NCBI RefSeq assembly: GCF_017743995.1
Contig: NZ_JAGHRB010000005.1
Span: 1-64,000, forward strand
Source of the DNA: Ruegeria sp. R13_0
GTDB taxonomy: Bacteria; Pseudomonadota; Alphaproteobacteria; Rhodobacterales; Rhodobacteraceae
Direction of reading: 5' to 3'
DNA length: 64,000 nucleotides
Both the position numbers and the translations under genes were made by a program. The notes below the pieces were generated by a model, which saw only the letters and a list, made by a program, of their open reading frames with translations, had not been told where the DNA came from and made no database searches. This document shows, piece after piece, positions 6,895 through 23,054 of the stretch. Every line of letters begins with the position of its first letter. Position 1 is the stretch's first letter.

Positions 6895-8156
6895 CAGATC
6901 ATCTCTCGCGCTTTGATTTCCAAATAGGTCGAGATCAGCCGCGCCGTGATCTCGCCCGGTTCGGCGTCAATCACGGTCACGCCGATCTGTTGCAGCCGTT
7001 CCAGCACGAGGTGACGTTCGCGCAGAAGCTGCCCGGTCGAGACGGTCTCGGCCACCTCATTCATGTCCTGCGGGGCCGTGTTGACCTGTGCTTCGAGGAT
7101 CGGATCACGCAGGGTGACGAAAACGATAAGGTGCCGCTTGGCCAGCGCGTTGATGTTCTCGACCATCAACTCGGCCGAGGTGGTATCGACGAAATCCGAG
7201 AACACGATGATCAGGCTGCGTTTCGGGGTGCGCCCGTTCAGCTCGGTCATGGCGAGGGTGTGGTTGGTCTCGACGCTTTCATATTGCAGCTCGGCGGTGC
7301 GACTGCGTAGACGTGTGAACGCCGCGCGGCCCGGTTCGGGGGGCAGAAACATGCGTGGCTTGGCATCATAGGCGTAGAGCCCGACCAGATCGCCACCGAT
7401 GGCGGCGGCCCAGGCGGTAGCCAGCGCGGCGGTAATCGCGTGGTCGATCTTGGGCAGGCCCGCAATCTCCTCGCGCATTTGGTAGCCATTGTCCAAGGCG
7501 ATGATGACATGGTGATTGCGCTCGGCCCGGACCTCTTTGGCGACCAAAGACCGATGCCGCGCTGACCGCTTCCAGTCGATCGAGTTCGCATCCATGCCGG
7601 GGACGAAATCCCGCAATTGGTGAAACTCGGTACCCTCGCCAATGGCGCGGTTTTCCTTTACGCCGAAAAGGCGAGATTGAACCGTTGTCGAAATCTCACC
7701 TGATTGCACGCGGCGGATGTTGGGTACGACCGCTATCTCAAGACCAAAAGCGATTTTCGGGACGAATTCGAATAGTTTGAACCGGGACGACCAGCTGAGC
7801 CATAGATGCGAGAGACTCCATGTCCCCCGGCGAATGGCGCGAAACGGAACGCGCACCTGACCGCTGGACAGGTCGAATTTCGCTGGCCCTTCTATCCCTT
7901 CGGGCCAGTGTACCTGCCCGGTCATGCCCGAGGTCGCAGGAGTGACGGTCAAGGCGACCTCATCCTGTTCGCCAACGAAGATATCACCCAGCGGCTCTAC
8001 CGAGACAGAACGGCGGCGCGGCCAGGACAGCAGCAGGTCACCTATGGCAAGCACGCACAGAACCACCCATGGCACTCCGGCCACGGTGCGGGTTGCATCG
8101 CCCATGACAACGGCGACCAGTGACAGTCCAAGCGCCACGCAGGCCGCCACCAGCAA
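6894..8156 (-). CDS. DUF58 domain protein (MoxR-associated, vWA-like)
   Basis: The protein is about 420 residues. Two N-terminal hydrophobic segments are followed by a beta-rich region and the DUF58 core [17 protein letters not shown] near residue 190. The vWA-like part begins VIIALDNG, so the usual metal site DxSxS is replaced by DNGYQ and metal binding may be lost. The annotated start is TTG 8156; no ATG lies near. An in-frame ATC at 8174-8172, overlapping the moxR stop and preceded by GAGG, would give an N-terminus [11 protein letters not shown] and may be the true start. The family acts with MoxR ATPases in envelope-related complex assembly. Confidence 0.87.
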
Positions 8157-8173
8157 TATGCGCGAGGGACGGA

Positions 8174-9130
8174 TCAGCGGGGGGCCTCGATCTGGTTGAG
8201 GATGTTCTCCAACACCTGCTGTGGCCCGCGCCCTTCGATTTCGGCGGCGGGAGACAGAACGATGCGATGTTGCAGTGCGTGGATGATCAGGGTTTTGACG
8301 TCATCAGGAATGGCAAAATCGCGCCCGTTCAAGGCTGCCGTTGCGCGGGTCGCCCCGGCGATGGCATCCGCAGCGCGGGTCGAGGCGCCAAAGGCGATAT
8401 CCGCGCTTTCCCGTGTGGCGCGCACCAGACGCAGGATATAGGCCAGAATATCGTCATCCAGCACGATCTCATCAATCAACTTCCGGGCCGCTGCCATCGT
8501 TGGGGCATCCAGCAGAGGGCGCACAGTTTGCGTCGCACTCAAGGGGTCCAGAGGCGCATTGGCGTGCTGGCGCAGGATCGACAGTTCAACATCCTCGGGC
8601 GGGAAAGTCAGGTTCACCTTGAACAGGAAACGGTCCAGCTGCGCCTCGGGCAGCGGGTAGGTGCCTTGTTGTTCAATCGGGTTTTGGGTGGCGACAACGA
8701 TGAACTCGGACCCTAGCGAATGGTCGGTGCCGTCGATGGTCACCATGCGTTCGTTCATCGCCTGCAGCAAGGCGGCTTGGGTCTTGGGCGGCGCGCGGTT
8801 GATCTCATCGGCCAGCAGGATCTGGCTGAAGACGGGGCCTTTGGTCAGAACAAACTCGCTGGTTTGGAAATTGTAGATCGAGGTGCCCAGAACGTCGCCG
8901 GGCATAAGGTCAGGCGTGAACTGAATGCGCCCGAACTCAAGGTTCAGTGCCCCTGCAAAGCTGCGCGCCAGCAGCGTCTTGGCGGTACCCGGAGGCCCTT
9001 CAAGCAGCACGTGACCGCGCGCAAACAGCGCCGTCAGCAGCAGATCAACCGCCTCTTCCTGGCCTTGCACAACTTTGCCGATCTCAGCCCTGAGGCTTTC
9101 GGCATGGGAAAACAATTCATCAAGCGTCAT
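8174..9130 (-). CDS. MoxR family AAA+ ATPase
   Basis: The protein is 318 residues. Walker A is [11 protein letters not shown] near residue 42 and Walker B is [19 protein letters not shown] near 105, followed by the sensor region [20 protein letters not shown] and a C-terminal lid. These are hallmark MoxR sequences. MoxR ATPases are chaperone-like and work with vWA/DUF58 partners, here encoded immediately downstream. ATG 9130 is preferred over TTG 9136. The start overlaps the end of the DUF4350 gene by 11 bases. Confidence 0.95.
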
Positions 9131-10430
9131 CGGCAAGTTGCTCCAGTATCAACTCAAATTGGTCCACATAGGGAATGGCATGTTCCGGCCCCAGATACGG
9201 GGGGAGGGCGCGGATGGATGCGATCAGATCTTCCAGTTTTGCGGTCAGGTCCGGTTTTCGGGCGCGAATATAGGTGAGGTACGCCTCCCCCGGTGTGCCG
9301 CGCAGGGCGTGCGAGGTGCCAAAGACCGATGCCGCGCGGGCGCGCAGGCGGGTGTCGATGAAGTCCGAAAGCAGCGCGCCGTCCTGGTCGGTCATCCGCA
9401 TCAGCCGCGCACGGACCCGATTGGCGGTTCGTTTGCCTGACCCGAGACCCAACGACAGATCCGCAACCGGCCCGCTGCGCACCCCGCCGCGCCAGATCGC
9501 GAGGGCCAGCAGAAGCCCCGCGCCGATCCAGAGCGTCAGGAAGGGCGGTTCGAACAGGCGTTTCAGATCGTCCCAGGTGCGTTCGCGCGCGACATGCTGT
9601 TGCGGGTCGGTCAGCCAGTTGCGATCGCTATAGTCGATGATGATCCGCTTCTCGCCTGCGATCTCGGGCAGCACCTGCGCCGCGATCCGGGCGTTGTCGC
9701 CCAGAACCAGCCCATGGTTGTTCATCAAATCCGGGTCGGACAGAACATGGACCTTCTGCTGCTCACCATCGCCGGGCAGCGGGCAAAGACCGAGAACCAT
9801 AGCGCCCTGACGGCCCACCAGCGGCTCGCAGCCTTGCCCGTCAAAGACCTGCGCCGCGTAGAGGCGGGCGGTCAGCGCATCGTCAGAGGCCACGTCAAAA
9901 TCGGTGAACGGAACGCGGGCCGAGCGGATTTTGCCGACATCCGAGCCAACGATCCCATGCAACACGCCCTCGATCCCCTCTTCGGGGGACAACAGGATGG
10001 GATGCCCCAACCCGGTCAACCTCAGGCCCGAGCGCCATTTGGGCAAGATCACAAGGCTGGGGGTCGAGAGCGCCTTTTCGCGGATCACATCCAGAGTCTG
10101 ATCGAACTCATCCGGTTGCAGTAGCAGTTCGTCTTTGGTCTGCGCGCGCGCCCGATCTTTGCCCGGCTGAGTGTCATAGATGGGCTGGATCAAAAGGCCG
10201 ATGGTGCTGCGGTCCAGCGGCCAGCCTCCGGTAAAGGTTTGCGCGGTGTGGCCTTGATCGCGCAGCCACAGCTCTAGCCCGTCGAACCCAGTCGAGGAGT
10301 CGCGCAGCGCATATTGTCGACCGGCCATCACATAAAGGAATATGCCGATGCACAGTGCGCCGATGATGCCAAAGATGATCCAGTCGACCCGGACCCGCTC
10401 GGTTGCTGCAATATTGGCCGTATCGCTCAT
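9120..10430 (-). CDS. DUF4350 domain protein
   Basis: The protein is 436 residues. It has an N-terminal membrane segment (IIFGIIGALCIGIFLYVMAG), an extracytoplasmic alpha/beta region resembling DUF4350 (SSTGFDGLELWLRDQGH), a second membrane helix near residue 305 and a cytosolic tail. This arrangement between DUF4129 and MoxR is typical for the cluster. Its ATG overlaps the stop of the DUF4129 gene (ATGA). Function is unknown; a scaffold or sensor role in the MoxR membrane complex is inference. Confidence 0.82.
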   Translation of the reverse strand: MSDTANIAATERVRVDWIIFGIIGALCIGIFLYVMAGRQYALRDSSTGFDGLELWLRDQGHTAQTFTGGWPLDRSTIGLLIQPIYDTQPGKDRARAQTKDELLLQPDEFDQTLDVIREKALSTPSLVILPKWRSGLRLTGLGHPILLSPEEGIEGVLHGIVGSDVGKIRSARVPFTDFDVASDDALTARLYAAQVFDGQGCEPLVGRQGAMVLGLCPLPGDGEQQKVHVLSDPDLMNNHGLVLGDNARIAAQVLPEIAGEKRIIIDYSDRNWLTDPQQHVARERTWDDLKRLFEPPFLTLWIGAGLLLALAIWRGGVRSGPVADLSLGLGSGKRTANRVRARLMRMTDQDGALLSDFIDTRLRARAASVFGTSHALRGTPGEAYLTYIRARKPDLTAKLEDLIASIRALPPYLGPEHAIPYVDQFELILEQLADDA

Positions 10431-11125
10431 GCGCGAACCTCGCGCAGGATGGGGCGGATGCGCGCCAGCAGCGCGTTGAAGTCGGGGTCGCTGATGGAGC
10501 GATGGCCGAAATGCACCCGTTCACTTTCCAGCACCAGCGCGCGCAAGTCGGCGATGTACCAGAGGCTCTGCGGCAGGCTGCGCAGCGCCTCGCGATGGGT
10601 CCAGCTTCGCTTGAACAGAACCTCATTGGCCGTCAGGCAGCGGGTCAGGACCAGTTGCGCCAGCCCGACGACGGCCTGGTTGCGATCCTCCTGCCTCAGG
10701 ATGGCGTCCAGATCGGGCAATTCCTCATACGTCTCGGGTGTGTCCACTGACGGCTTTCCGGCGCGCTTTGCGTTGCCTGCCCCCGACCCGAAAGAAACCG
10801 ACGTGCGGCCAACGCTGAGGTACAGGATCCAGGCCAACAGGGCCAGAACCAGCGCCGAGACAATCCCCATCGTCCAGTTGGTATCAAGCGAGACGGTCTG
10901 AGACTCTTCGTCAGGTGTGGGTGAGAATTTGGTGTCCAGCGGAGGGGCCGGTTGGGTGGGATCGAAATACACCACATCCGTGTCGATCCCGCGATAGCGA
11001 ACGGCCTTTAGATAGTCCTGTCCCGAAGGGCTAAGTTCAGTCGGCGAAAGCGCTTTTTCTTGCGCTGTCACCATTATGGGAGCGCAGAAAAGAAACGATA
11101 GAAATAAGGCCGTCAAAAAACGCAT
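10427..11125 (-). CDS. DUF4129-like exported membrane protein, first gene of the MoxR cluster
   Basis: The protein is 232 residues. An N-terminal signal peptide (FLTALFLSFLFCAPIMVTAQ) precedes a short periplasmic stretch, a membrane helix near 85-105, and a cytosolic helical domain with the DUF4129-like pattern RSWTHREALRSLP near 190. It is the promoter-proximal gene of the cluster that runs down to the SpoIIM/RDD genes. The 146 bases upstream should hold the promoter and include a 6-bp hairpin (ATGCGC/GCGCAT, 11170-11184). Confidence 0.8.
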   Translation of the reverse strand: MRFLTALFLSFLFCAPIMVTAQEKALSPTELSPSGQDYLKAVRYRGIDTDVVYFDPTQPAPPLDTKFSPTPDEESQTVSLDTNWTMGIVSALVLALLAWILYLSVGRTSVSFGSGAGNAKRAGKPSVDTPETYEELPDLDAILRQEDRNQAVVGLAQLVLTRCLTANEVLFKRSWTHREALRSLPQSLWYIADLRALVLESERVHFGHRSISDPDFNALLARIRPILREVRA

Positions 11126-11271
11126 TGGGCTATCGTTAGTTCACTCTCGTCATGCATGCAATCGGCAGAATGCGCTTCGCGCATGGATTGACCATGGCGG
11201 GCACGCGACCCGTGTTTGTCGCGCCCATGTGGCGATTTCATGACAGGTTTTTAGAGCGGGGTCGGGTGTGA

Positions 11272-12159
11272 CTATTCGGGCTCTTCCGCATAGAGGCCAA
11301 GCTCATGCCTGCGCTGGTGGAACCGCGCGACGCGATCGACAATCTCATCGCTGGAAACAGCGATCACGAAGGACAAAAGCGTCTCAAGCAATGCAATGGT
11401 CGATACTGACGAAGGGAAGAACTGCGGCGTGTCCGCAGACAGAACAAACCCGTGCTGCGCGTTCAGGATCACCGGACTGGCCGGGCTGTCCGAGATGCCA
11501 ACGACCGTCATACCTTGCTGGCGCGCCAGCTTGATCGCCTCGATCACTTCGGTCCGATAGGGATGGCAGGTGATTGCGATCAGGACGTCCTGTTCGTCCG
11601 CCCAGGCCAGATCGTCCACAGGGGTCGAGCCGGACCGGGGGATGGCGTGAAACTGCTTCATGCCGGTCGAGGCGAGATAGGTGAAGTTGCGGGCGTTCGA
11701 ATTGTTCACCCCGACACCAAGAGTAAAGATCTGGCGGCAGTTCCAGATATCCTCGGCGGCGGCCTGCAGTTGTTTGGCGTCGATCCTGGCAAAGGTCTCT
11801 TCGATATTGCGGATCGCCGCGCCGATCATATCGGCATAAAGCCCGCCCAGCTCACCGGACTTGCCGATATCCTGAAGCCACCGGGCGCGGTCAGGAAATG
11901 AGACCGATCCCTGTCGGATCGCCTGTCGGAACGGGGCGCGAAAATCCTCGTAGCCTTCAAAGCCGACTTGTCGGGCCATGCGGACAAAGGTGTTTGGTTT
12001 GACATTGGCAGCTTCGGCAATTTCACGCACGGTCGAAACGCCGACATCAGTGGGGTTCTCCAACACATAGCGCGCGGCCTTTTGGGCCTCGGGCGTCAGA
12101 GCCTCCCACTCCTCGGCCAGACGGTCGAGAACGATTGATGATACATTTGTGTCATTCAT
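11272..12159 (-). CDS. MurR/RpiR family transcriptional regulator
   Basis: The protein is 295 residues. Residues 1-80 form an RpiR-type HTH (YVLENPTDVGVSTVREIAEA, then NVKPNTFVRMARQVGFEGY). Residues about 120-260 form a SIS domain that normally binds a phosphosugar-like effector (FTLGVGVNNSNARNF and VLIAITCHPYRTEVIEA). ATG 12159 is chosen; longer in-frame extensions upstream run into the intergenic region and lack family features. It is divergent from the catabolic operon starting at 12297, so control of that operon is the simplest inference. Two similar 15-bp motifs (12140-12154 and 12170-12184) are candidate operators. Confidence 0.93.
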   Translation of the reverse strand: MNDTNVSSIVLDRLAEEWEALTPEAQKAARYVLENPTDVGVSTVREIAEAANVKPNTFVRMARQVGFEGYEDFRAPFRQAIRQGSVSFPDRARWLQDIGKSGELGGLYADMIGAAIRNIEETFARIDAKQLQAAAEDIWNCRQIFTLGVGVNNSNARNFTYLASTGMKQFHAIPRSGSTPVDDLAWADEQDVLIAITCHPYRTEVIEAIKLARQQGMTVVGISDSPASPVILNAQHGFVLSADTPQFFPSSVSTIALLETLLSFVIAVSSDEIVDRVARFHQRRHELGLYAEEPE

Positions 12160-12184
12160 TGTTGACCGTGGTACACTTGTGAAA
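12140..12184. promoter_or_regulatory. putative RpiR operator pair in the divergent promoter region
   Basis: GATACATTTGTGTCA (12140-12154) and GGTACACTTGTGAAA (12170-12184) match at 11 of 15 positions, in the same orientation, exactly 30 bases apart (about three helical turns). The first covers the 5' codons of the rpiR-type gene and the second lies in the intergenic region, just downstream of a TTGACC that could be a -35 box for the operon. The arrangement fits autoregulation plus repression. It is sequence inference only. Confidence 0.45.
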
Positions 12185-12296
12185 TTAGCCTGTCGAGCAG
12201 ATTCGCACACTGGGAGCAGCAAGCTGATCGAAAACGCCGGTATGTGGCCCCCGAAACACCTCTGCCGACCTGCGGCGCATTTGAGGAGACTACTGG

Positions 12297-13379
12297 ATGA
12301 GTTTGCCTGACACAATGAAGGCGATGGTGACCATGGGTCACGGCGGGTTGGAGCAAATGGTGCTGCATGAAAACTGGCCCCGCCCCGAGCCTGCTGCGGG
12401 TGAAGTGTTGATCAAGGTTGCCGCTTGCGGGTTGAACAACACGGACGTGAACACGCGCTCGGGCTGGTACTCCAAGACCGTCACAGATGCGACCACGGGC
12501 GGTGCGTTTGAAGAGGTGGGTGAGGATGACCCGACCTGGGGCGGCGCGCCGATTACCTTTCCTCGCATTCAGGGTGCCGATATCTGCGGTGAAATCGTTG
12601 CCGTCGGTGCAGGCGTGGATGCAGCGCGGATTGGCCAAAGGGTGATCACCGATGGCTGGCTGCGCGACCCGGACGATCCCGAAAACATGGACAAAACGGG
12701 TTACTACGGGTCCGAACGGGATGGCGGTTTTGCTGAATACGCAACGACGCTGGCCGTCAACGCGGTGCCGATCACATCGAACCTGTCGGATGCCGAACTG
12801 GCGACCTTCTCGTGCTCCTATTCCACGGCCGAAGGCATGCTGACCCGCGCAAATGTCACGGACAAAGACACGGTTCTGGTGCCGGGGGCCTCGGGTGGTG
12901 TTGGTGGCGCGCTTGTGCAGTTGGCCAAGCGGCGTGGTGCGCGGGTGATCGCTTTGGCGTCCGAGGCCAAACACGCCGATGTTGCCGCTCTGGGTCCAGA
13001 CATGATCCTGCCGCGCGCGCCAGAAAACTTGCGTGCTGCGCTGGGCGATGAGAAGATCACTGTGGTGGCCGACGTGGTCGGTGGGCCCTACTGGGCGAAG
13101 CTGATCGACATTCTGGAACGGGGCGGGCGTTATACCTGTTCAGGTGCCATCGCTGGCCCCATGGTCGAGTTTGACCTGCGAACCTTCTACCTGCGCGATC
13201 TGACCTTCACAGGCTCGACTGTGATTGACCCGCAGGTCATGCAGAACCTCGTGAAGTACATTGAAGCGGGTGAGATCAAACCCGCACTTGCAGCCACCTA
13301 TCCGCTTGAGGAGCTTCGGGAAGCGCAAGCTGCGTTCATTGCCAAACAACACACCGGCAATATCGTGGTGATCCCATGA
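12297..13379 (+). CDS. MDR-superfamily zinc-type alcohol dehydrogenase/quinone reductase-like oxidoreductase
   Basis: The protein is 360 residues. The N-terminal GroES-like domain has [20 protein letters not shown], and the Rossmann domain has the NAD(P)-binding loop [15 protein letters not shown] near residue 200. The region [11 protein letters not shown] precedes it as in MDR enzymes. The usual catalytic-zinc Cys and structural-zinc Cys cluster are not evident, so it is probably a zinc-independent reductase of the quinone or enoyl reductase type. It is the first gene of the operon, with GAGGAG eight bases before the ATG, and its stop overlaps the next start (ATGA). AcuI, an acryloyl-CoA reductase of DMSP breakdown, belongs to this superfamily, but I do not claim this is AcuI. 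Confidence 0.88.
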
Positions 13380-13954
13380 CCTTGGATGATGTGCTGCGGG
13401 CCGCACAGTTGGTGCATCAAACGCACCACGATCTGTCCGCCTTTGGCGAATGGCCGTCGGACCTGTCGGCGGTAGAACTGGAACCGAACCATATCCCTGC
13501 TGCGGATCAGGTGCGCGAGTTGACCCTCTCAGGAAGTGCCGGGACGCAGGCCTTGGTCGAGGCGATCAAGGCGACCACGCATTTGGCCCAGTGGAAACAC
13601 ACCTACACGGAAGAGGAGGTCGGTGCCGAGTTCCTCAGCCGCTATGGCTATTACGAACTATTCGTCCCGACCGGTCATTTTCATTCGACCCAGCTGCGTG
13701 GTTATGTCGGCTATTGGGGGCCGGGTCTGGCCTATGACTGGCACAGCCATCAGGCGGAGGAGCTTTACCTGACGCTGGCCGGGGGGGCTCTGTTCAAGGT
13801 CGACGGAGAGGAGGCGTTTGTCGGTCAAGGCCAGACACGCAGTCATGAAAGTTGGCAAAGTCATGCGATGACGACAACGGATCAGCCGATCCTGACATTT
13901 GTGCTTTGGCGTGGCGAAGGGATGGGCGATCTGCCCAGAATGGACGCGGCATGA
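13376..13954 (+). CDS. dddQ: DddQ-type cupin (DMSP lyase / DMSP lyase-like family)
   Basis: The protein is 192 residues, the length of DddQ. The C-terminal cupin holds YWGPGL near 113, then [10 protein letters not shown] with His123, His125, Glu129 and Tyr131, and His163 in SHAMTT. From memory, His125, Glu129, Tyr131 and His163 are the metal and catalytic residues reported for DddQ, and both identity and numbering match. DddQ cleaves dimethylsulfoniopropionate to acrylate and dimethyl sulfide. The wider cupin family includes weak or inactive members, so activity needs assay. It sits between an MDR reductase and an enolase-superfamily gene with 4-base overlaps on both sides. Confidence 0.82.
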
Positions 13955-15057
13955 AGATCACTCGGATCCGTGTATATCAGACCGGGCTGCCCTATGTTGG
14001 TGGCGCCTATGTCTGGGGCGCGGGGAACGCCATCGAAACGGCCACAGCCTCGGTCGTGGTCCTAGACACGGATGCAGGCTTACAAGGTTGTGGCGAGTTC
14101 ACACCCTGTGGCGAGAACTACATGGTCGCACATTCCGAAGGCGTCGTCGCGCTGGCGCGGCTGGTCGCGCCACACTTGCTGGGAGAAGACCCGCGTCAGG
14201 TTAGCCGGATCGAGCAGTTGATGGACCATTTGGTGCAGGGTCACGGCTACGCGAAGGCTCCGTTTGATGCGGCCTGCTGGGATATCTTGGGGCAGGCCTG
14301 TGATCAGCCAGTCTGGATGCTGCTGGGTGGAAAGCTGACCGATGGCGCGCCCATGTACCGGGTCGCGCCGCAAAAGGCGGTAGATGAGACCGTGGCCGAG
14401 ATGAACGCCTATCGCGATCAAGGCTACCGGCAGTTTCAGATCAAGGTTGGTGGTGACTGGGCCACCGATATTGACCGTATCCGCAGCACGGTTCCCTTGC
14501 TGCAGCCGGGCGAAAAGGCGATGGCGGATGCCAATCAGGGTTGGCGGGTCGACAATGCGATCCGGGTGGCGAGGGCCACGCGAGATCTGGATTTCATCCT
14601 CGAACAGCCCTGCCGCACCTATGAGGAATGCCAGCAAGTTCGCCGTGTAGCAGAACAGCCGATGAAGCTGGACGAGTGCGTGACGGGCATCCACATGGCG
14701 CAACGCATTGTCGCGGATCGTGGGGCCGAGATCTGCTGTCTGAAAATCTCGAACCTCGGTGGGCTCAGCAAGGCGCGGCGCGTGCGGGACTATCTGGTGG
14801 AAAACCGCATTCCCGTGGTCAGTGAAGACACCTGGGGAGGTGAAATCACTAGTTCGGTCGTGGCGCATTTTGCAGCCTCGACTCCGCCCGAGTATCTTCA
14901 GAACACAACCGATCTGATGAACTACAACACCCGGTCGACCGGAATCGGCGGCCCGGTGTCGCGGAATGGCAAGCTTTATGCCTCGGATGCGCCCGGGTTG
15001 GGGGTCGTGCCAGATTTCGAAAGCCTCGGGGCGCCGGTAGAGGAGTTCCGCCTGTGA
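13951..15057 (+). CDS. enolase-superfamily (mandelate racemase/muconate lactonizing subgroup) enzyme 1
   Basis: The protein is 368 residues. The metal ligands are Asp193 (MADANQGW), Glu218 (ILEQP) and Asp241 (MKLDECV). The likely acid/base lysines are Lys165 (QIKVGG) and Lys265 (CLKISNLGG). The two-lysine pattern and the DTWGG motif near the C-terminus resemble 4-hydroxyproline-betaine epimerases and cis-3-hydroxyproline dehydratase, which are the best guesses; the substrate cannot be read from sequence. ATG 13951 overlaps the cupin stop; a longer in-frame start would overlap dddQ by 100 bases. It forms a paralogous pair with the gene at 15335. Confidence 0.88.
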
Positions 15058-15338
15058 GAGACCAAGCCAAAGCAACCCAGATGATTGACGACGCGCGCGT
15101 ACGAGTGACGCGGTTTAACTTTGCCCCGGGTGCCGAAACCGGCTGGCACCGCCACGCGATGGACTATGTGATCACCGCCGTCACCGATTGCCACATGCGT
15201 TTGGAATTGCCTGATGGAACCGTCAATGAGGTGACAGTGCCTGCCGGAACATCATATCGCCGGGACCAAGGGGTCGAGCACAATGTGATCAATGCAGGGG
15301 ACCACCCCATGTCTTTCGTGGAAGTGGAACTGAAATGA
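15054..15338 (+). CDS. small single-domain cupin
   Basis: The protein is 94 residues and forms one cupin barrel: FAPGAETGWHRHAMDYV gives the first motif (HxH with a following Asp in place of the usual Glu) and QGVEHNVINAGD the second. It starts with GTG overlapping the preceding stop as GTGA, and its own stop overlaps the next ATG. It sits between the two enolase-superfamily genes. It could be an isomerase, an epimerase or a small dioxygenase-like protein. The substrate is unknown. Confidence 0.85.
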   Translation: MRDQAKATQMIDDARVRVTRFNFAPGAETGWHRHAMDYVITAVTDCHMRLELPDGTVNEVTVPAGTSYRRDQGVEHNVINAGDHPMSFVEVELK

Positions 15339-16444
15339 AGATCACTCGACTAACGGTCTTTCAGGTCGATCTGCCGCTGGAGCATCCCTACTGGCTGTCT
15401 GGTGGGCGGCTGAAGTTCGAAAACCTCGACGCAACGATTGTGAAGGTTGAAACGGATGCGGGCGTTACGGGATGGGGCGAAGGTACCCCTTGGGGCCATA
15501 CTTATGTGCCGGCACATGGGCCGGGTATCCGGGCCGGGATCGAAACCATGGCTCCGTTCATTCTGGGTCTTGACCCCCGCAAGGTGCTGGAGGTTGAGCG
15601 CGCGATGGACCTCGCGCTGCCCGGTCACCTATATGCCAAAAGCCCGATCGATATGGCTTGCTGGGATATCGCCGGTCAGGCGGCGGGCCTGCCCATCGCC
15701 GATCTGATGGGCGGAGGCTCCCGAACGCCGCGCCCGATTGCCTCGTCCGTCGGGGCGAAGACCGTTGAAGAAACCCGCGAAGTCATCGAACGCTATCGTA
15801 GCCGGGGTTACATCGCGCATTCGGTTAAGATCGGCGGCGATGTGGAGAGAGACATCGCTCGTGTTCGGGATGTGGAAAGCCTCCGCCGACCAGGTGAGAT
15901 TGTCCTCTATGACGTTAACCGGGGCTGGACCCGGCAACAGGCCCTGCGGGTGATGAGCGCATGTGAGGACCTGAACGTCATGTTCGAGCAGCCGGGAGAG
16001 ACGCTGGACGACATCGCAGCGATATCGGCGAAACATGCCTCGCCCGTCTCGGTGGATGAATCGCTTGTCACATTGCAGGACGCGGCCCGGATCGCGCGGG
16101 ATGGTTTGGCCGAAATATTCGGGATCAAGCTGAACCGGGTCGGTGGGCTGACCAAGGCTGCGCGGATGCGGGACATTGCGTTGGCTCATGGGATCGACAT
16201 GTTTGTCATGGCGACAGGAGGGTCCGTGCTGGCCGATACCGAAGCGCTGCATCTGGCCGCCACCATACCCGATGACAATTGCCACGCCGTCTGGGCCTGT
16301 CAGGACATGATCACCGTCGACATCGCAGGCGGGCGCGGCCCGCGCAACGTGGACGGCCATCTGCATCTGCCCGACACGCCCGGCCTTGGTGTGCATCCCG
16401 ACGAAGACGCTCTGGGCGCCCCGGCGGCCGTTTACAGACTCTGA
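15335..16444 (+). CDS. enolase-superfamily (mandelate racemase/muconate lactonizing subgroup) enzyme 2
   Basis: The protein is 369 residues. Without gaps up to residue 270 it has the same key positions as the gene at 13951: Lys165 (SVKIGG), Asp193 (LYDVNRGW), Glu218 (MFEQP), Asp241 (SVDESL) and Lys265 (GIKLNRVGG). Both lysines being present suggests a racemase/epimerase or dehydratase. The C-terminal loop differs: MATGGS replaces the DTWGG of its paralogue, so substrate choice probably differs. It lies 27 bases upstream of the aminotransferase gene. Two diverged paralogues in one operon suggest two sequential or stereochemically distinct steps. Confidence 0.88.
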   Translation: MKITRLTVFQVDLPLEHPYWLSGGRLKFENLDATIVKVETDAGVTGWGEGTPWGHTYVPAHGPGIRAGIETMAPFILGLDPRKVLEVERAMDLALPGHLYAKSPIDMACWDIAGQAAGLPIADLMGGGSRTPRPIASSVGAKTVEETREVIERYRSRGYIAHSVKIGGDVERDIARVRDVESLRRPGEIVLYDVNRGWTRQQALRVMSACEDLNVMFEQPGETLDDIAAISAKHASPVSVDESLVTLQDAARIARDGLAEIFGIKLNRVGGLTKAARMRDIALAHGIDMFVMATGGSVLADTEALHLAATIPDDNCHAVWACQDMITVDIAGGRGPRNVDGHLHLPDTPGLGVHPDEDALGAPAAVYRL

Positions 16445-16471
16445 TTTTCTTGACGATGGAGATCGCGTGAT

Positions 16472-17743
16472 ATGCTCAAGATCAACACTCAATCCGAATG
16501 GATCGACCGCGCCAAGGCGGCTCTGCCTGCGGGTGGCTTCGGCAATTTCGACCCCGGCATCATGATCTCACGCGGCGAAGGCAGCCGCGTCTGGGATGAG
16601 GATGGCAACGAATACATCGACTACCTGATCGGCTCCGGCCCGATGCTTTTGGGTCATGGCCACCCCGAAGTGCTTGAGGCCGTTCTGGAGCAACTGCCCA
16701 AGGGCATGACCTTCTTTGCCAATAACAGCAAAGGTGTCGAACTGGCCGAGGCGATCATCGACGCCGTGCCCTGCTGTGAACAGGTGCGCTTTGTCGCCTC
16801 GGGTGGCGAAGCGGATATGTACGCGATCCGTCTGGCGCGCGCCTATACCGGTCGGGATAAGATCCTGAAATTTGAAGGCGGCTATCACGGCATGAGCGCC
16901 GAGGCGCAGATGAGTCTCGCTCCAAGCCGTGAGGTGAATTTCCCGCAAGCCGTGCCGGACAGTGCGGGCATCCCCTCAGGCGTCGCCGACCAGATGCTGA
17001 TCGCGCCTTTCAATGACCTTGAGGCCGTTGAGACGCTGCTGAACGAACATGACGAAATCGCGGCTATCATGGCCGAGCCGTTGCAGCGCATCATCCCTCC
17101 GCTGCCGGGATATCTGCAGGGCCTGCGCGCGCTGTGTGACAAATACAATGTGCTGCTAATCTTTGATGAGATCGTCACAGGGTTCCGTCTGGCCTATGGC
17201 GGAGCACAGGAACGGTACGGCGTGACGCCCGATATCTGCACGTTGGGCAAAATCACCGGTGGGGGCTTCCCTCTGGCCGCGCTGGGCGCAAGCGCTGAGA
17301 TCATGAAACATTTCGACAAATCGCAGGTGGGTGAGGCCGGATGGCTGATGCAACTGGGCACTCTGTCAGGTAACCCAGTGGCCTCGGTCGCCGGGTTGAA
17401 AACGATGGAGATTCTGCGACGCGAGGGGACATATGACCAGCTGCGCGCGACCGGCGCGGCCTTGCAGCAGATGCAGGTGGATGAGCTGACCAAGGCGGGC
17501 ATTCCCCATCAGATCTGCGGCGATGAAACGCTGTTTGATGTCTATTTCACGGCAAACCCCTGCCGCGATTACCGCAGCGCGCGGCATGACGACCCCAAAC
17601 GGAATGCACTTTACAATGATGTCCTGCGGGCGAACGGGATTTTCAAATCTCCGGGCAAACTCTACCCGTCTCTGGCGGTGACTGAGGCCGATCTGGAGCA
17701 AACGCGAGACGCCGTGAAACAAGCGGTCGCGGCACTGGGCTGA
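16472..17743 (+). CDS. class III PLP-dependent aminotransferase (glutamate-1-semialdehyde aminomutase-like)
   Basis: The protein is 423 residues. It has the class III pattern: GSGPMLLGHGHPEV near 52, a phosphate-binding ASGGEADMYAIR near 109, FEGGYHG near 134, LLIFDEIVTGFR with the cofactor Asp near 230, and LGKITGGGFPLAA with the Schiff-base Lys near 259. It resembles glutamate-1-semialdehyde 2,1-aminomutase, but its catabolic context argues for an omega- or amino-acid transaminase. It is the last gene of the operon, preceded by a GGAG site and a 27-base gap. Confidence 0.9.
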   Translation: MLKINTQSEWIDRAKAALPAGGFGNFDPGIMISRGEGSRVWDEDGNEYIDYLIGSGPMLLGHGHPEVLEAVLEQLPKGMTFFANNSKGVELAEAIIDAVPCCEQVRFVASGGEADMYAIRLARAYTGRDKILKFEGGYHGMSAEAQMSLAPSREVNFPQAVPDSAGIPSGVADQMLIAPFNDLEAVETLLNEHDEIAAIMAEPLQRIIPPLPGYLQGLRALCDKYNVLLIFDEIVTGFRLAYGGAQERYGVTPDICTLGKITGGGFPLAALGASAEIMKHFDKSQVGEAGWLMQLGTLSGNPVASVAGLKTMEILRREGTYDQLRATGAALQQMQVDELTKAGIPHQICGDETLFDVYFTANPCRDYRSARHDDPKRNALYNDVLRANGIFKSPGKLYPSLAVTEADLEQTRDAVKQAVAALG

Positions 17744-17971: not shown

Positions 17972-18934
17972 TCATATTTTTTTCCAATCGAAGAAACCGG
18001 GGCCTGCCTGGCGCAGCAGAGTGTCGGCCATTGCCCGGCCCATCTCGGTGGCGTCTTCGATTGCGCCTGTGGTGTTTTCCGCGATGGACTCGGACCCGTC
18101 GGGGCGCAGAACCTCACCCCGCAGCCGCATTTGGCCGTTCTCGATTTCGCAAAGCCCGGCGATAGGGGTCTCGCAAGACCCGTCCAGACCGGCCAGCAGC
18201 GCACGTTCCGCCGCCAGACGTTGGCCTGTTTCCGAATGGTGAATCGCCTCAAGCAGTTCGGCGGCCCGGCTGTCTGTTTCGCGGCGCTCAATGCCGATCG
18301 CGCCTTGTGCGATGGCGGGCAGCATATCGTCGGTTGAAATCGCGGTGGCAGGGACGTCCTCCATCCCCAGTCTGCGGATGCCGGCCATGGCGAGAAAGGT
18401 GCAATCGGCCACACCGTCCGCCAGTTTCTTCAGGCGGGTCTGAACGTTGCCGCGAAATTCGACCACATTCAGGTCAGGACGGCGGTTCAGCAATTGCGCC
18501 CGACGGCGCAGGGAAGAGGTGCCGACGACGGCGCCTTCAGGCAGGTCGTGGATCGAGGTGAAGTGCGGGGAAATGAACGCATCGCGCACATCCTCGCGCG
18601 GCAGGAACGTATCCAGCACCAGCCCAGCGGGTTGTTCGACCGGCATATCCTTGGTCGAATGGACGGCGATGTCGATATCGCTGCGCAGCATTGCCTCTTC
18701 GATTTCCTTGGTGAAGAGGCCTTTGTTGCCGATCTCTTTCAACGGGCGATCCGCGTCGATCATGGCGCGGTTGTCGCCGGTGGTTTTGATCACCACGATC
18801 TCAAACGCCTCATCGCTCAGCCCGAACGCATCGCGCAGCCTTTGGCGGGTCTCATAGGCTTGTGCCAAAGCCAGCGGAGAGCCTCGGGTGCCAATTTTCA
18901 GCGGCGATGCGGGGGTGGGCAGAGTCAGTGTCAT
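17972..18934 (-). CDS. hemC: porphobilinogen deaminase (hydroxymethylbilane synthase)
   Basis: The protein is 320 residues. It polymerises four porphobilinogen units to hydroxymethylbilane in haem/siroheme synthesis. Family motifs are clear: IGTRGSPLALAQ near 14, AVHSTKDMP near 88, GTSSLRRRAQL near 135, and LDGSCETPIAG with the Cys that carries the dipyrromethane cofactor. ATG 18934 fits the family start; the frame stays open far upstream only because it runs antisense through hemE. It is divergent from hemE with about 105 bases between starts, which suggests shared regulation of two nearly consecutive pathway steps. Confidence 0.97.
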   Translation of the reverse strand: MTLTLPTPASPLKIGTRGSPLALAQAYETRQRLRDAFGLSDEAFEIVVIKTTGDNRAMIDADRPLKEIGNKGLFTKEIEEAMLRSDIDIAVHSTKDMPVEQPAGLVLDTFLPREDVRDAFISPHFTSIHDLPEGAVVGTSSLRRRAQLLNRRPDLNVVEFRGNVQTRLKKLADGVADCTFLAMAGIRRLGMEDVPATAISTDDMLPAIAQGAIGIERRETDSRAAELLEAIHHSETGQRLAAERALLAGLDGSCETPIAGLCEIENGQMRLRGEVLRPDGSESIAENTTGAIEDATEMGRAMADTLLRQAGPGFFDWKKI

Positions 18935-19039
18935 GGGCACAGCTTTAGTCGCGTCACATTGCCCTGACAATGGGGGCAGTGCTTGACAAATTGCCACTGA
19001 GCGCCGACCCGTGGGCGAAACGCAAGATTGAGGGCGATG

Positions 19040-20074
19040 ATGGCTGAGACGAAGAAATTGCTGCGGGAACTGGCCGGAGAGGTTCAGGAGATTCCGCCGA
19101 TCTGGATGATGCGTCAGGCCGGGCGGTATCTGCCGGAATACCGCGCAACCCGCGCGCAGGCCGGGGATTTCCTGTCGCTGTGCTACAATCCCGAACTGGC
19201 GGCCGAGGTCACGTTGCAGCCCATTCGCCGCTATGGGTTTGACGCCGCGATCCTGTTTGCTGACATCCTTCTGGTTCCCCAAGCGCTCGGGGCGGATTTG
19301 TGGTTTGTCACAGGCGAAGGCCCGCGCCTTTCGACGATCACGCAGCAATCCGATTTTGACGTGTTGAAGCCGGTTGAGGACATTCATGAGACCCTGTCCC
19401 CGGTCTATGAAACTGTGCGTATCCTGTCGAAGGAATTGCCCGCCGAGACGACGTTGATCGGATTCGCAGGCGCGCCGTGGACTGTCGCGACCTATATGAT
19501 CGCAGGGCGCGGCACGCCTGATCAGGGTCCTGCGCATGCGCTGCGCGAGGAGAATAACGTTCTGTTCGAGGCTCTGTTGGAGCGGATTACATTGGCGACG
19601 ATCGAGTATCTTTCGGCTCAGATCGAAGCCGGGGCTGAGGTGGTCAAGATATTTGACAGCTGGGCCGGGTCGCTGAAAGGCGACGCGTTCCAGAAATACG
19701 CGGTTGAGCCATGTCGCGTGATCACGCAGGCCATTAAGGCGCGTCATCCCGGTATTCCAGTCATTGGTTTCCCGCGCGAGGCGGGCGAGGGCTATGTCGG
19801 GTTTGCCAAGGCAACCGGTGTGGATTGTGTGGCGCTGGACAACTCGGTCGCGCCTGACTGGGCGGCGGCGCATGTGCAGGTGGATGGCTGTGTGCAGGGG
19901 AATTTGGCCTCGTCCCATATGGTGACGGGCGGTCAGGCGCTGGTGGATGAGACGCGGCGGATTGTTGAGGCGTTCTCGAAAGGGCCGCATATCTTCAACC
20001 TCGGCCACGGCATTACGCCGGATGCGGATCCTGAGAACGTGCAGTTGATGATCGACACGGTGCGCGGGCGGTAA
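19040..20074 (+). CDS. hemE: uroporphyrinogen decarboxylase
   Basis: The protein is 344 residues. It decarboxylates uroporphyrinogen III to coproporphyrinogen III. Signature sequences are [17 protein letters not shown] near 24 and [14 protein letters not shown] near 138, with the catalytic Asp in [14 protein letters not shown]. Tandem ATGs occur at 19037 and 19040; TTGAGGG upstream has better spacing for 19040. It is divergent from hemC. A G/C-rich hairpin follows the stop codon. Confidence 0.97.
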
Positions 20075-20077
20075 AGG

Positions 20078-20095
20078 AAGGGGGCCAGCCCCCTT
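20078..20095. terminator. hairpin after hemE
   Basis: AAGGGGG (20078-20084) and CCCCCTT (20089-20095) are perfect inverted repeats separated by four bases, immediately after the hemE stop. Only a weak T-run follows. It lies between convergent genes and could serve both. Confidence 0.5.
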
Positions 20096-20120
20096 CTTGG
20101 CCTTTGGCCAATTCATCCCC

Positions 20121-20150
20121 CGGGATATTTTTAGCCAGATGAAGGGGCGG
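20121..20150. repeat. dispersed intergenic repeat, copy A
   Basis: This 30-base segment (CGGGATATTTTT, then GATGAAGGGGCGG) is nearly the same as 59797-59827, differing by a one-base indel and a few central substitutions. It overlaps the last codons of the minus-strand CoA racemase gene, so the repeat encodes that protein's C-terminus. Similar sequences appear after genes in Rhodobacteraceae from my memory, so it is probably a terminator-linked repeat family. Confidence 0.55.
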
Positions 20151-21240
20151 ATCGGTCTTGGCCGGAGAGTTCGTCCAGAATGTCTTGGGTGTGTTCGCCT
20201 CGGGCCGGGCTGGGTTTGGCGCTCCAGTGCGTGGTCGAGAAACGGGGCGCTGCGGCGGCTTGCAAGGTGCCATCCACGGTTTGCCAGGTTTGGCGGGCGG
20301 TGTTCATGGGGTGGTTTTGTGCCTCGACCGGATCAAGGACTGGGGCGACGCAGGCATTGGTTTCGTGAAACAGCGCGGCCCAGTGGTCTCGAGGTTTGCT
20401 CAGAAATAGGTCTGTCAGTTTCTTCGTTTGGTCCGGCCAGAGCTTGGGGTTGAATTGCTCCTGCAAGTCGGGGTTTTGTGACAGGCCCAGAATGTTCAGG
20501 AGTTCGGCGTAGAATTTTGGCTCAAGGCATTGGACTGTGACAAAGCCATCATCGGCGCAGCGGTAGGTGCGGCTCCAATGTGGGCCGTCGAGCAGGCTTT
20601 GGCCGCGGGTCTCGGACAGGTTGCCGGTTTGGCGCATGCTCATCAGCAGGTTCATCATATGCGCCGAACCATCGTAGATGGCCGCGTCGACGACGGTGCC
20701 CTGACCGGTGCGCTGGGCGTTGAGCAAACCGGCGAGGAGGCCGGTGACCAGATACATCGCGCCTCCGCCAATGTCTCCGACGAGGGTTGCTGGGGTTTGC
20801 GGAGGTGTTTCAGGTTGTGCCGCGTACCAGAGCGCGCCCGAAAGGGCGATGTAGTTCAGGTCATGCCCGGCGGTTTTGGACAAAGGGCTCTCCTGTCCCC
20901 AGCCGGTCATGCGGCCGTAGACCAGTTTGGGGTTCATTGCGTGGCAGATGTCAGGCCCTAGTCCCAGTTTCTCCATCACGCCGGGGCGGAAGCCTTCGAT
21001 CAGTGCGTCGGCGGTGGTGATGAGGTCCTTGGCGGTGTTCAAGTCGGTTGCATCCTTGAGATCAAGCGCAATTGACCGTTTGCCGCGGTCCAGCACCGAG
21101 CGTTCCGGCATGCCGGGTGTCACACTGCCGCCCTTGCGGTGGATGGTGATCACATCCGCGCCGAGATCAGCCAGCAGCATGGCCGCGAAAGGGCCGGGGC
21201 CCAAGCCTTCGATCTCGATAATGCGTATTCCGTTCAGCAT
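20131..21240 (-). CDS. CaiB/BaiF-type alpha-methylacyl-CoA racemase
   Basis: The protein is 369 residues. It begins LNGIRIIEIEGLGPGPFAA, typical of the CaiB/BaiF CoA-transferase family. GHDLNY gives His126 and VGDIGGG gives Asp156, the catalytic pair and numbering I recall for mycobacterial alpha-methylacyl-CoA racemase, so racemisation of 2-methylacyl-CoA rather than CoA transfer is the likely reaction. It probably serves branched-chain or sterol side-chain oxidation. The gene stands alone. Its stop and last codons lie in dispersed repeat copy A, so the extreme C-terminus is probably not conserved. Confidence 0.9.
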   Translation of the reverse strand: MLNGIRIIEIEGLGPGPFAAMLLADLGADVITIHRKGGSVTPGMPERSVLDRGKRSIALDLKDATDLNTAKDLITTADALIEGFRPGVMEKLGLGPDICHAMNPKLVYGRMTGWGQESPLSKTAGHDLNYIALSGALWYAAQPETPPQTPATLVGDIGGGAMYLVTGLLAGLLNAQRTGQGTVVDAAIYDGSAHMMNLLMSMRQTGNLSETRGQSLLDGPHWSRTYRCADDGFVTVQCLEPKFYAELLNILGLSQNPDLQEQFNPKLWPDQTKKLTDLFLSKPRDHWAALFHETNACVAPVLDPVEAQNHPMNTARQTWQTVDGTLQAAAAPRFSTTHWSAKPSPARGEHTQDILDELSGQDRSAPSSG

Positions 21241-21366
21241 GGATATCTCCGGTAAGTGCAGCGTTCCCCGGACCCTACAGCAATTCCGCGCAGAGCTCTG
21301 TGCGAAATTGGCCTGTTCCACCGGGAGGCGAAACGATAGGGTCTCTGCCAGAACGGGGAAACAGGC

Positions 21367-22296
21367 ATGGCTACCATTTTGTCGATCAAGGACTTGCGCA
21401 AATCCTATGCTGACGGGTTCGAGGCGCTGAAAGGCGTGTCGCTGGACATCGAGGAAGGCGAAATCCTTGCTCTGCTCGGGCCGAACGGGGCGGGGAAGAC
21501 GACGCTGATCTCGACCATTTGCGGGATCACCACGCCGACCTCGGGCAGTGTTTCGGTCGGTGGGCACGATATCCAGGCCGAGTTCCGCGCCGCCCGCAAA
21601 ATGATCGGGCTGGTGCCGCAGGAGATTGCGCTGGAGCCGTTCGAGAAGGTCTATAACACGGTCCGTTTTTCCCGAGGGTTGTTTGGCTATGGCAATGACA
21701 GCGCGCGGATCGAAGAGATCCTGCGCAAACTGTCGTTGTGGGATAAACGCAAGAACGCGATCAAGGAACTGTCCGGGGGCATGAAGCGTCGCGTTCTGAT
21801 CGCCAAAGCCTTGGCTCATGAACCGCGCATTCTGTTTCTGGATGAGCCCACCGCCGGTGTCGATGTCGAGCTGCGCAAGGATATGTGGGAGATCGTCGCC
21901 GAGCTGAAGCAGGCGGGCGTCACCATCATTTTGACCACGCATTACATCGAAGAAGCCGAAGCCATCGCTGACCGTGTGGGCGTCATCGACAAGGGTGAGC
22001 TGCTGCTGGTTCAGGACAAGGATACCCTGATGGCGCAGATGGGTAAGAAACAGATCGAGGTCATGCTGACCGAGCCAATCTCGGCCATCCCGGACGGTTT
22101 GGCCGCGCATAATCTGGTGCTGAACGGAAATGGCGATGCGCTGATCTATACCTATGACACCAATGCGGATCGGACCGGGATCACAACGCTGCTGAATGAC
22201 GTGGCCCAATCGGGGTTGGTCCTGCGGGATGTGCAGACGAAGCAATCCAGTCTGGAAGAGATCTTCGTCAATCTGGTATCGGGAGAGGCTGCATGA
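21367..22296 (+). CDS. ABC-2 type transporter ATP-binding protein (YadG-like)
   Basis: The protein is 309 residues. It has Walker [12 protein letters not shown] near 38, the signature LSGGMKRR near 138, Walker [13 protein letters not shown] near 158 and the switch His in [11 protein letters not shown]. The order and wording, including [15 protein letters not shown] and TAGVDVELR, are close to E. coli YadG. Its stop overlaps the permease ATG. YadG/YadH-type exporters have no settled substrate. A domain of about 85 residues follows the ATPase core. Confidence 0.92.
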
Positions 22297-23054
22297 ACTG
22301 GACCGCCATTGCCGCCATCTACCGGTTTGAGATGGCCCGGTTCTTCCGCACCTTGGCGCAGAGCTTTCTGTCGCCGGTCCTGTCGACCTCGCTGTATTTC
22401 GTGGTCTTTGGCACGGCCATCGGCAGCCGTATTCAAGAGGTTGAGGGCGTCTCATACGGGGCGTTCATCGTACCAGGGCTGATCATGTTGTCGGTAGTCA
22501 CGCTGGCGATCTCGAACGCCTCGTTCGGGATCTATTTTCCCAAGTTTCTGGGCACGATCTATGAGTTGCTCTCCGCCCCAGTCAATTTCATCGAGATTGT
22601 CATAGGTTACGTAGGCGCGGCCGCCACCAAGGCGCTGTTCGTCGGTCTGGTGATCCTTGCGACCGCGACATTCTTCGTCGACATCCGGATCGAGCATCCG
22701 CTGGCGATGGCCGCGTTTCTGGTGCTGTCCTGCCTAAGCTTCTCGCTGTTGGGGTTCATAATCGGGATATGGGCCAGTAACTTTGAGCAGATGTCGTTGG
22801 TGCCGCAGTTGGTTGTCACACCGCTGATCTTTCTAGGGGGCACGTTCTATTCGATCTCGATGCTGCCGCCGCTATGGCAGACGATCACCTTGTTCAACCC
22901 GGTGGTTTACCTGATTTCGGGCTTCCGCTGGTCGTTTTATGGGCTGGCAGATGTACCGATCGTGTTCAGCCTTTTGGCCATCGTGGCCTTCACCGCACTG
23001 TGCCTTGCGATCATCTGGTGGATCTTCAAAACAGGCTGGCGCATCCGCAGCTAG
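22293..23054 (+). CDS. ABC-2 type transporter permease (YadH-like)
   Basis: The protein is 253 residues with six hydrophobic segments in an ABC-2 membrane domain. The sequence [12 protein letters not shown] near 62, [20 protein letters not shown] near 180 and [12 protein letters not shown] near 210 are the conserved ABC-2 export signature, close to E. coli YadH. The start overlaps the ATPase gene by four bases (ATGA). Together they form a complete half-transporter pair that would assemble as a 2+2 exporter. Confidence 0.92.

Follow-up and report, generated by a model that had tools for sequence, protein, structure and literature searches.

A DddQ-type cupin of Ruegeria sp. R13_0 lies in what looks like a shortened betaine-catabolic operon of roseobacters

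Introduction

DddQ is a cupin-type lyase of dimethylsulfoniopropionate (DMSP), and its gene is described as ranking among the DMSP lyase genes that are most abundant in the bacteria of ocean metagenomes (PMC5395565; this and the other papers are cited from excerpts of their text). In the mechanism described for the enzyme, DMSP is held at the metal, a tyrosine takes a proton and dimethyl sulfide (DMS) is eliminated (PMC5395565). Here we describe a dddQ-type gene in a stretch of 64,000 nucleotides from Ruegeria sp. R13_0 (contig NZ_JAGHRB010000005.1, positions 1 to 64,000; hereafter the window), where it lies in an operon together with genes for two enolase-superfamily enzymes (ENO1 and ENO2), a medium-chain reductase/dehydrogenase (MDR), a mini-cupin and a class III aminotransferase. 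The discovery of DddQ is attributed to Todd et al. 2011.

In R. pomeroyi and R. nubinhibens dddQ is linked to an MDR gene, and the excerpt of PMC3338564 reports no dddQ near acuI; the pairing of dddQ with MDR is thus already in print. In the literature that we searched, no link was found between DddQ and an operon with Rieske oxygenase, dimethylglycine-dehydrogenase-like (DMGDH) and aminotransferase genes, and subscription papers on DddQ, which lay outside that search, may hold it. Doubt over the substrate of DddQ is reportedly in print too, a 2018 paper being said to argue for other functions in some of the cupin DMSP-lyase-like enzymes. Quaternary amines are customarily N-demethylated by a Rieske oxygenase together with a DMGDH-type flavoprotein, and the Hpb clusters of hydroxyproline and proline betaine catabolism combine a Rieske demethylase and a flavoprotein demethylase with an enolase-superfamily epimerase.

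We read the window locus as a shortened roseobacter betaine-catabolic operon, in which DddQ would be a metal-dependent beta-eliminating lyase whose main substrate is likely a nitrogen betaine or a derivative of one, with DMSP as a second or side substrate; we hold this reading with about even confidence. If a betaine operon is the home of DddQ, counts of dddQ may misstate the potential for DMS release, and the neighbouring genes supply a short list of candidate substrates. Furthermore, the solved relatives of ENO1 (PDB 2rdx), ENO2 (3eez; both generically named) and DddQ (4la2) would become parts of one pathway, and the operon setting would offer a direct route for seeking the real job of DddQ.

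Results and discussion

A six-gene operon around a conserved DddQ

The operon spans 12297-17743 and is divergent from a gene for an RpiR-type regulator (Table 1). A reading made earlier from the letters alone (the sequence-only reading) had described a translationally coupled unit with 4-base overlaps at four of the five junctions, and the coordinates of the open reading frames (ORFs) agree, the fifth junction (ENO2/aminotransferase) being a 27-bp gap. The operon is real, and its overlaps are seen in relatives too: among the junctions found at 80 named DddQ loci a 4-bp overlap recurs between MDR and DddQ in 37 of 56 and between DddQ and ENO1 in 29 of 31.

The DddQ-type protein exceeds the curated PF16867 cut-off of 27 bits and is the sole match to this model in the 4.68-Mb genome at E ≤ 0.001. 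It is 70% identical to the DddQ of Ruegeria lacuscaerulensis (locus L163). The sequence-only reading had noted the retention of His125, Glu129, Tyr131 and His163; alignment confirms these and adds Tyr120 and His123, so that all six catalytic residues listed in PMC4437653 are kept. The six are invariant across 13 aligned DddQs, and across 123 unique DddQ sequences the sole change at these positions affects H125 in one sequence. In family, catalytic residues and the slot after MDR, the window protein is like the crystallised DddQs of R. lacuscaerulensis (PDB 4la2, 5jso) and R. nubinhibens (4b29).

Table 1. Features of the DddQ locus, in window coordinates
Feature	Position	Strand	Supporting match or remark
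RpiR/SIS-domain transcriptional regulator, divergent from operon	11272-12159	-	PF01418 + PF01380
Two direct repeats, GATACATTTGTG (12140-12151) and GGTACACTTGTG (12170-12181), 30 bp apart	12140-12181	+	Candidate RpiR operator
Junction holding the ~817-residue DMGDH-like gene in most mapped relatives; gene absent in window	12160-12296		
MDR, quinone-reductase/PIG3-like	12297-13379	+	PF08240/PF00107
DddQ-type cupin, DMSP-lyase family	13376-13954	+	PF16867, 67.4 bits; PDB 4la2/5jso, 292.7 bits
ENO1, enolase superfamily, muconate-lactonizing subgroup	13951-15057 (ATG at 13951)	+	PF13378/PF02746
Mini-cupin, 94 residues, single-domain	15054-15338 (GTG start)	+	PF07883, 43.9 bits
ENO2, enolase superfamily, muconate-lactonizing subgroup	15335-16444	+	PF13378/PF02746
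Junction holding the ENO3 gene in most mapped relatives; gene absent in window	16445-16471		
Class III aminotransferase, glutamate-1-semialdehyde aminomutase (GSAM) subgroup	16472-17743	+	PF00202, 216 bits

A larger operon in relatives

In many relatives the operon has two divergent arms. One consists of genes for a protein of the carboxymuconolactone-decarboxylase family (CMD), a Rieske oxygenase and RpiR, and the other of those for the DMGDH-like protein, MDR, DddQ, ENO1, the mini-cupin, ENO2, a third enolase-superfamily enzyme (ENO3) and the aminotransferase; any of DddQ, ENO1 and the mini-cupin can be missing. At one representative locus (L071) the best solved relatives of the Rieske protein are carnitine monooxygenase structures (oxygenase subunit, PDB 6y8j) and those of the 817-residue flavoprotein are dimethylglycine dehydrogenases (PDB 4pab), but neither protein reaches the cut-off of a listed NCBIfam model, the best for the Rieske protein being glycine betaine monooxygenase at 161.6 of 670 bits. 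Judged by its gene content, the larger operon appears to have the anatomy of quaternary-amine (betaine) catabolism. The sequence-only reading had proposed a pathway for a betaine or a hydroxylated amino acid, and the Rieske and DMGDH-like genes of relatives speak for the betaine.

PDB 4la2 is 100% identical over 192 columns to the DddQ in the operon of R. lacuscaerulensis ITI-1157, and 4b29 is 100% identical over 188 columns to one of two DddQs in that of R. nubinhibens ISM; these are the two crystallised DddQs that can be traced by identity, and both come from this kind of operon. PDB 5cu1, presumably the DddQ of R. pomeroyi, shares 69% identity with the operon copy at locus L181.

Within the genus, DMGDH (E ≤ 1e-250), Rieske and ENO3 (E ≤ 1e-100) genes are each present in 51 of 54 genomes, with DMGDH no more than 16 kb from Rieske in 51 of 51 cases and from ENO3 in 50 of 51. 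Two genus genomes with no DddQ match at all (L132, L133) retain CMD, Rieske, RpiR, DMGDH, ENO3 and aminotransferase genes, without MDR, ENO2 or DddQ, which argues that this core can stand as an independent pathway. Outside the family, four loci (L222-L225) hold Rieske, RpiR, DMGDH and aminotransferase genes, and another (L228) holds DMGDH, MDR, ENO2 and aminotransferase genes; at two more (L226, L227) DMGDH and the aminotransferase are accompanied by genes for a CoA ligase and a TauD-family dioxygenase, and the stretch showed no Rieske gene. These other-family contexts single out no one substrate. DddQ, MDR, the mini-cupin, ENO1 and ENO2 thus seem to be additions to a core of N-demethylation and transamination, and DddQ would then be an added branch or an extra step.

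Linkage of DddQ to the operon

Frequencies are drawn only from a genus census, a scan of named relatives and a sample of 198 genomes of the family, since loci L061-L120 had been picked for having DddQ or ENO2. Removed beforehand were five DddQ rows below 93 bits, all rows of the ENO2 search below 690 bits (ENO1 and other enolase-superfamily genes) and three DMGDH rows at 49% identity. The genus census (49 DddQ matches of at least 93 bits in 47 genomes, radius 16 kb) placed DddQ near operon genes in 46 of 49 cases. ENO2, DMGDH, Rieske and ENO3 are all nearby in 37; six, the window among them, have ENO2 alone, two have DMGDH, Rieske and ENO3 without ENO2, and one has all but ENO3, which is cut off (DddQ lies 2 kb from the contig start). 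The other three have no operon gene. In 40 of the 49 cases DddQ has both Rieske and DMGDH within this radius. The named scan, which covers the best 80 of 165 relatives and hence close ones, gave 58 of 80 DddQ loci with at least two kinds of operon gene within 9 kb. The statement in the sequence-only reading that dddQ of other roseobacters lies near mandelate racemase-like genes proved right, as the neighbourhood comparison finds enolase-superfamily genes adjoining dddQ.

Could DddQ be a passenger, the operon being an insertion hot spot for small cupin genes with no common pathway? Such a view would fit with DddQ, ENO1 and the mini-cupin each being optional, and with the 25 ENO2-bearing genomes of the family sample, nine of which have no adjacent DddQ (G176, with a contig break, is uncounted) against 15 in which DddQ adjoins operon genes (among them G139, whose operon is divided between contigs). 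However, slot, orientation and 4-bp overlaps repeat across many species. The DddQ tree points the same way: the label for operon membership changes 24 times, compared with a mean of 36.7 after shuffling and none of 500 shuffles as low, and at least eight changes are forced by the branches starred in the tree, which indicates that divergent DddQ lineages occupy the same slot. This is a quick tree with SH-aLRT support only, in which long branches are present and 48 of 123 inner branches are open, and it was built from 147 rows, all free of stops, of which 123 are unique (some genomes were fetched twice), so that near-copies add to the clustering of labels. A passenger role seems to us barely plausible.

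A DMSP lyase under shared control?

A stronger alternative is that cleavage of DMSP is the genuine role of DddQ, and that it shares the operon since algae release DMSP and betaines together, so that one RpiR regulon would serve both and the neighbours would ignore the products of DddQ. We regard this as possible, if tentative, and the points that weigh against our reading are best considered beside it. The window operon itself is without Rieske, DMGDH and ENO3 genes, and the lack of the first two counts against a betaine pathway. Of the 32 genomes in the family sample whose DddQ scores 80 bits or more, only 15 have it beside the operon; 13 show no operon gene (including G176, at a contig start), three MDR only, and one was not fetched. 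DddQ can thus work alone, as a DMSP lyase would, and the nine ENO2-bearing genomes without an adjacent DddQ belong on the same side. The non-operon DddQs occur in several unrelated settings, each lineage in its own, as expected of an enzyme that needs no partner. Moreover, the catalytic residues are alike in operon and non-operon DddQs, which favours a plain DMSP lyase. The aminotransferase is alone of the operon set in 13 of the 20 other-family loci fetched (from 35 genomes with an aminotransferase match) and so is not tied to the pathway.

Published physiology also belongs here. Mutants in dddQ lose 97% of DMS production in R. pomeroyi and 20% in R. nubinhibens (PMC5395565), so that the enzyme does cleave DMSP in vivo, which may or may not be its purpose. 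The gene is induced by DMSP (PMC5395565), though merely 1-4-fold in R. pomeroyi (PMC4437653), and a study of R. pomeroyi in co-culture with a diatom lists dddQ among DMSP genes with a value of 19.2 for diel expression, but lists many uptake genes in the same way (PMC9038784). The Km of the R. lacuscaerulensis enzyme for DMSP is 22 mM, which speaks against DMSP as the proper substrate, but high Km values are common among known DMSP lyases (PMC5395565).

The genes around DddQ fit a DMSP lyase less well. The operon contains no acuI-like gene, and its MDR scores 48.4 bits against the AcuI acrylyl-CoA reductase model NF051456 (cut-off 440) and 139.3 bits against TIGR02824 (cut-off 296.8). The dddQ-linked MDR gene of R. 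nubinhibens, ISM_14095, did not make an acrylate-sensitive yhdH mutant of E. coli tolerant again (PMC3338564). On these two grounds we rejected acrylate handling by the operon MDR, and the earlier claim that the neighbours are not enzymes of DMSP breakdown gains support. The 4-bp overlaps likewise couple DddQ tightly to enolase-superfamily genes. Elsewhere in the genome, contig C56 carries dmdA (691.6 bits) and an acuI-like gene that, at 424.6 bits, falls slightly short of the cut-off of 440. DddQ is not linked here to DMSP or acrylate genes (such linkage is no strict mark of a DddQ), no search having been made for other DMSP lyase genes of this genome.

Eight of the non-operon loci, from Leisingera and a metagenome-assembled genome that groups with it, have in common that DddQ is surrounded by genes for an acyltransferase, a POR-type oxidoreductase, a semialdehyde dehydrogenase and an Asp/Glu racemase. 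A second setting is common to L109 and L213, and a third to L116 and L117 (Pfam was run on one locus each for the first two settings, and the third is described without Pfam). Among the 22 named loci scored outside the operon, three (L188, L206, L215) are still near a CMD, aldehyde dehydrogenase or enolase-superfamily relative. At L188 of Shimia thalassica (9533-11697), DddQ overlaps an enolase-superfamily gene (38% identical to ENO2) by 4 bp, with CMD upstream, which speaks for our reading. DddQs at 52-55% identity were also seen on contigs labelled Candidatus Pelagibacter (L178, L183, L185), that of L185 coming after polysaccharide/alginate-lyase-like genes.

A probably shortened copy in the window

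Unlike the setting of the crystallised DddQs, that of the window copy is split, with the Rieske, DMGDH and ENO3 genes on another contig of the same genome. Contig C22 carries at about 150.3-155.7 kb a cluster (L121) of ENO3 (66% identity), DMGDH (81%), Rieske (85%) and CMD (85%). In relatives ENO2, ENO3 and the aminotransferase follow one another in this order, and DMGDH lies between RpiR and MDR. Within the window, the 50 bp at about 12152-12201 are 88% identical to the promoter side of the spacer that separates RpiR from DMGDH at L071. At both matching junctions Ruegeria sp. R14_0 (L153) still has fragments, of DMGDH (residues 1-18, 684-732 and 779-817, at 8550-8930) and of ENO3 (residues 1-43 and 281-367, at 13050-13990). 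These fragments and the genes on C22 suggest that the window copy arose by deletion of DMGDH and ENO3, with L153 serving as a congener rather than an established sister.

The C22 cluster adjoins an NMT1-type ABC transporter, a link too loose to name a substrate, and also a group of PALP/ornithine-cyclodeaminase/aminotransferase genes, perhaps ectoine-related. On contig C52 (105.4k-113.9k, L131), roughly 90 kb further downstream than the window operon, lie a paralogous series of enolase, MDR, enolase and short-chain dehydrogenase/reductase (SDR) genes, an Ldh_2-type reductase and a DMGDH-like gene.

Candidate chemistry and substrates

Enolase-superfamily enzymes act on the proton alpha to a carboxylate. 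The nearest solved structure to ENO1 is PDB 2rdx (689.7 bits; 4mgg follows at 328.6 bits) and that to ENO2 is 3eez (756.9 bits), with 4mgg, 4h2h and 4e8g among the next-nearest. In alignments to 4mgg and 3eez both proteins keep a lysine at two aligned positions, which we take to be catalytic. The mini-cupin, optional among the operons of relatives, has as nearest structures 2fqp (92.2 bits) and 3lag (68.2 bits), both deposited as uncharacterised. The aminotransferase is closest to 2cfb (330.8 bits) and also matches the beta-Phe aminotransferase 4ao9 (163.4 bits). Its HemL score (TIGR00713) is 367.6 bits, below the cut-off of 527.3. Alphaproteobacteria use 5-aminolevulinate (ALA) synthase, which makes a heme role improbable as well, and we discarded that role. 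No transporter that could hint at the substrate was seen among the operon genes run against Pfam; the flanks of L071 were read as translations only.

A route consistent with these assignments would begin, in the full operon, with the Rieske oxygenase and the dimethylglycine-dehydrogenase/GcvT-like flavoprotein stripping N-methyl groups from a quaternary-ammonium acid. The Lys-Lys enolase-superfamily enzymes would abstract the alpha proton beside the carboxylate and racemise or eliminate, the GSAM-type aminotransferase would take off the freed amine, and MDR would reduce or oxidise an intermediate, all under control of RpiR. DddQ may work as proposed for DMSP, the carboxylate being bound at the metal, Tyr taking the alpha proton and a leaving group on the beta carbon being expelled. 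Since enolase-superfamily enzymes act on the same alpha proton, we infer that DddQ belongs in the pathway, and its main substrate would be a nitrogen betaine, or a derivative made by its neighbours, with a beta leaving group. A betaine so substituted would suit the chemistry of DddQ.

One specific candidate is a pathway for proline betaine or (hydroxy)proline betaines of the Hpb type, in which DddQ would dehydrate or open a hydroxyproline derivative. The full operon of relatives resembles Hpb-type clusters in its Rieske, DMGDH-like and muconate-lactonizing-subgroup enzymes. NF043002 (cis-3-hydroxyproline dehydratase) is the top NCBIfam model for ENO1, ENO2 and ENO3, and 4mgg, presumably the Labrenzia aggregata enzyme, stands with 4e8g and 4h2h among their nearest solved relatives. 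All three share the lysine positions of the dehydratase, but their scores (403.6, 321.2 and, for ENO3 of L071, 330.9 bits) fall below the cut-off of 500. Compared with Hpb-type clusters, the operon of relatives adds a GSAM-type aminotransferase, MDR, DddQ and enolase-superfamily genes of two to three different kinds. A plain proline route would not call for an aminotransferase, an enzyme ill-suited to a cyclic secondary amine, and at L225-L227 it adjoins DMGDH without any enolase-superfamily gene found. We consider this route quite improbable, and the proline or hydroxyproline side of the earlier proposal is not established by the ENO1 and ENO2 scores. A tryptophan position common to 4e8g, ENO1 and ENO3, though not ENO2, was discarded as a clue given that 4mgg carries it too.

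Returning to our preferred reading of a nitrogen betaine as main substrate, a bolder extension is that the original substrates of the whole DddQ family of lyases were beta-ammonio carboxylates, in which nitrogen takes the place of the sulfur of DMSP, with DMS as a by-product of betaine catabolism. Candidates would be beta-alanine betaine or the head group of an algal betaine lipid (2-hydroxymethyl-beta-alanine betaine). A beta-amino acid route would fit with the solved relatives of the aminotransferase, which include beta-amino acid aminotransferases, and with the alpha-proton-abstracting enolase-superfamily enzymes and the beta-keto-acid cleavage enzyme (BKACE) beside a distant copy (L224), yet we judge this extension unlikely. 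At that locus, which lies outside the family, BKACE and an SDR adjoin the aminotransferase (6918-8864), a possible hint of a beta-keto acid product.

RpiR and a candidate operator

RpiR is the divergent neighbour of the operon in most mapped relatives. The sequence-only reading was right about its presence, although the ORF that reaches 12315 is over-extended; the true gene (Table 1) encodes 295 residues, as in relatives. Two direct repeats form a candidate RpiR operator. In an alignment of 20 loci, with two genomes counted twice, the first copy has at most two mismatches in 20 of 20 and the second in 15 of 20. Scanning the window gave three matches with at most one mismatch where 0.44 were expected, and one of 100 shuffles reached as many. 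The first copy sits within the coding start of rpiR, so that coding constraint may account for its conservation, which weakens the case for an operator.

Other features in the window

On the reverse strand, genes for a MoxR-type AAA ATPase, a DUF58/vWA protein and a SpoIIM-domain protein lie in series at 5899-9136. Downstream of the operon and also on the reverse strand (17972-22455) are hemC, for porphobilinogen deaminase, and a gene for a family III CoA-transferase; the ORFs of both are over-extended at their starts, the domains being confined to the C-terminal halves.

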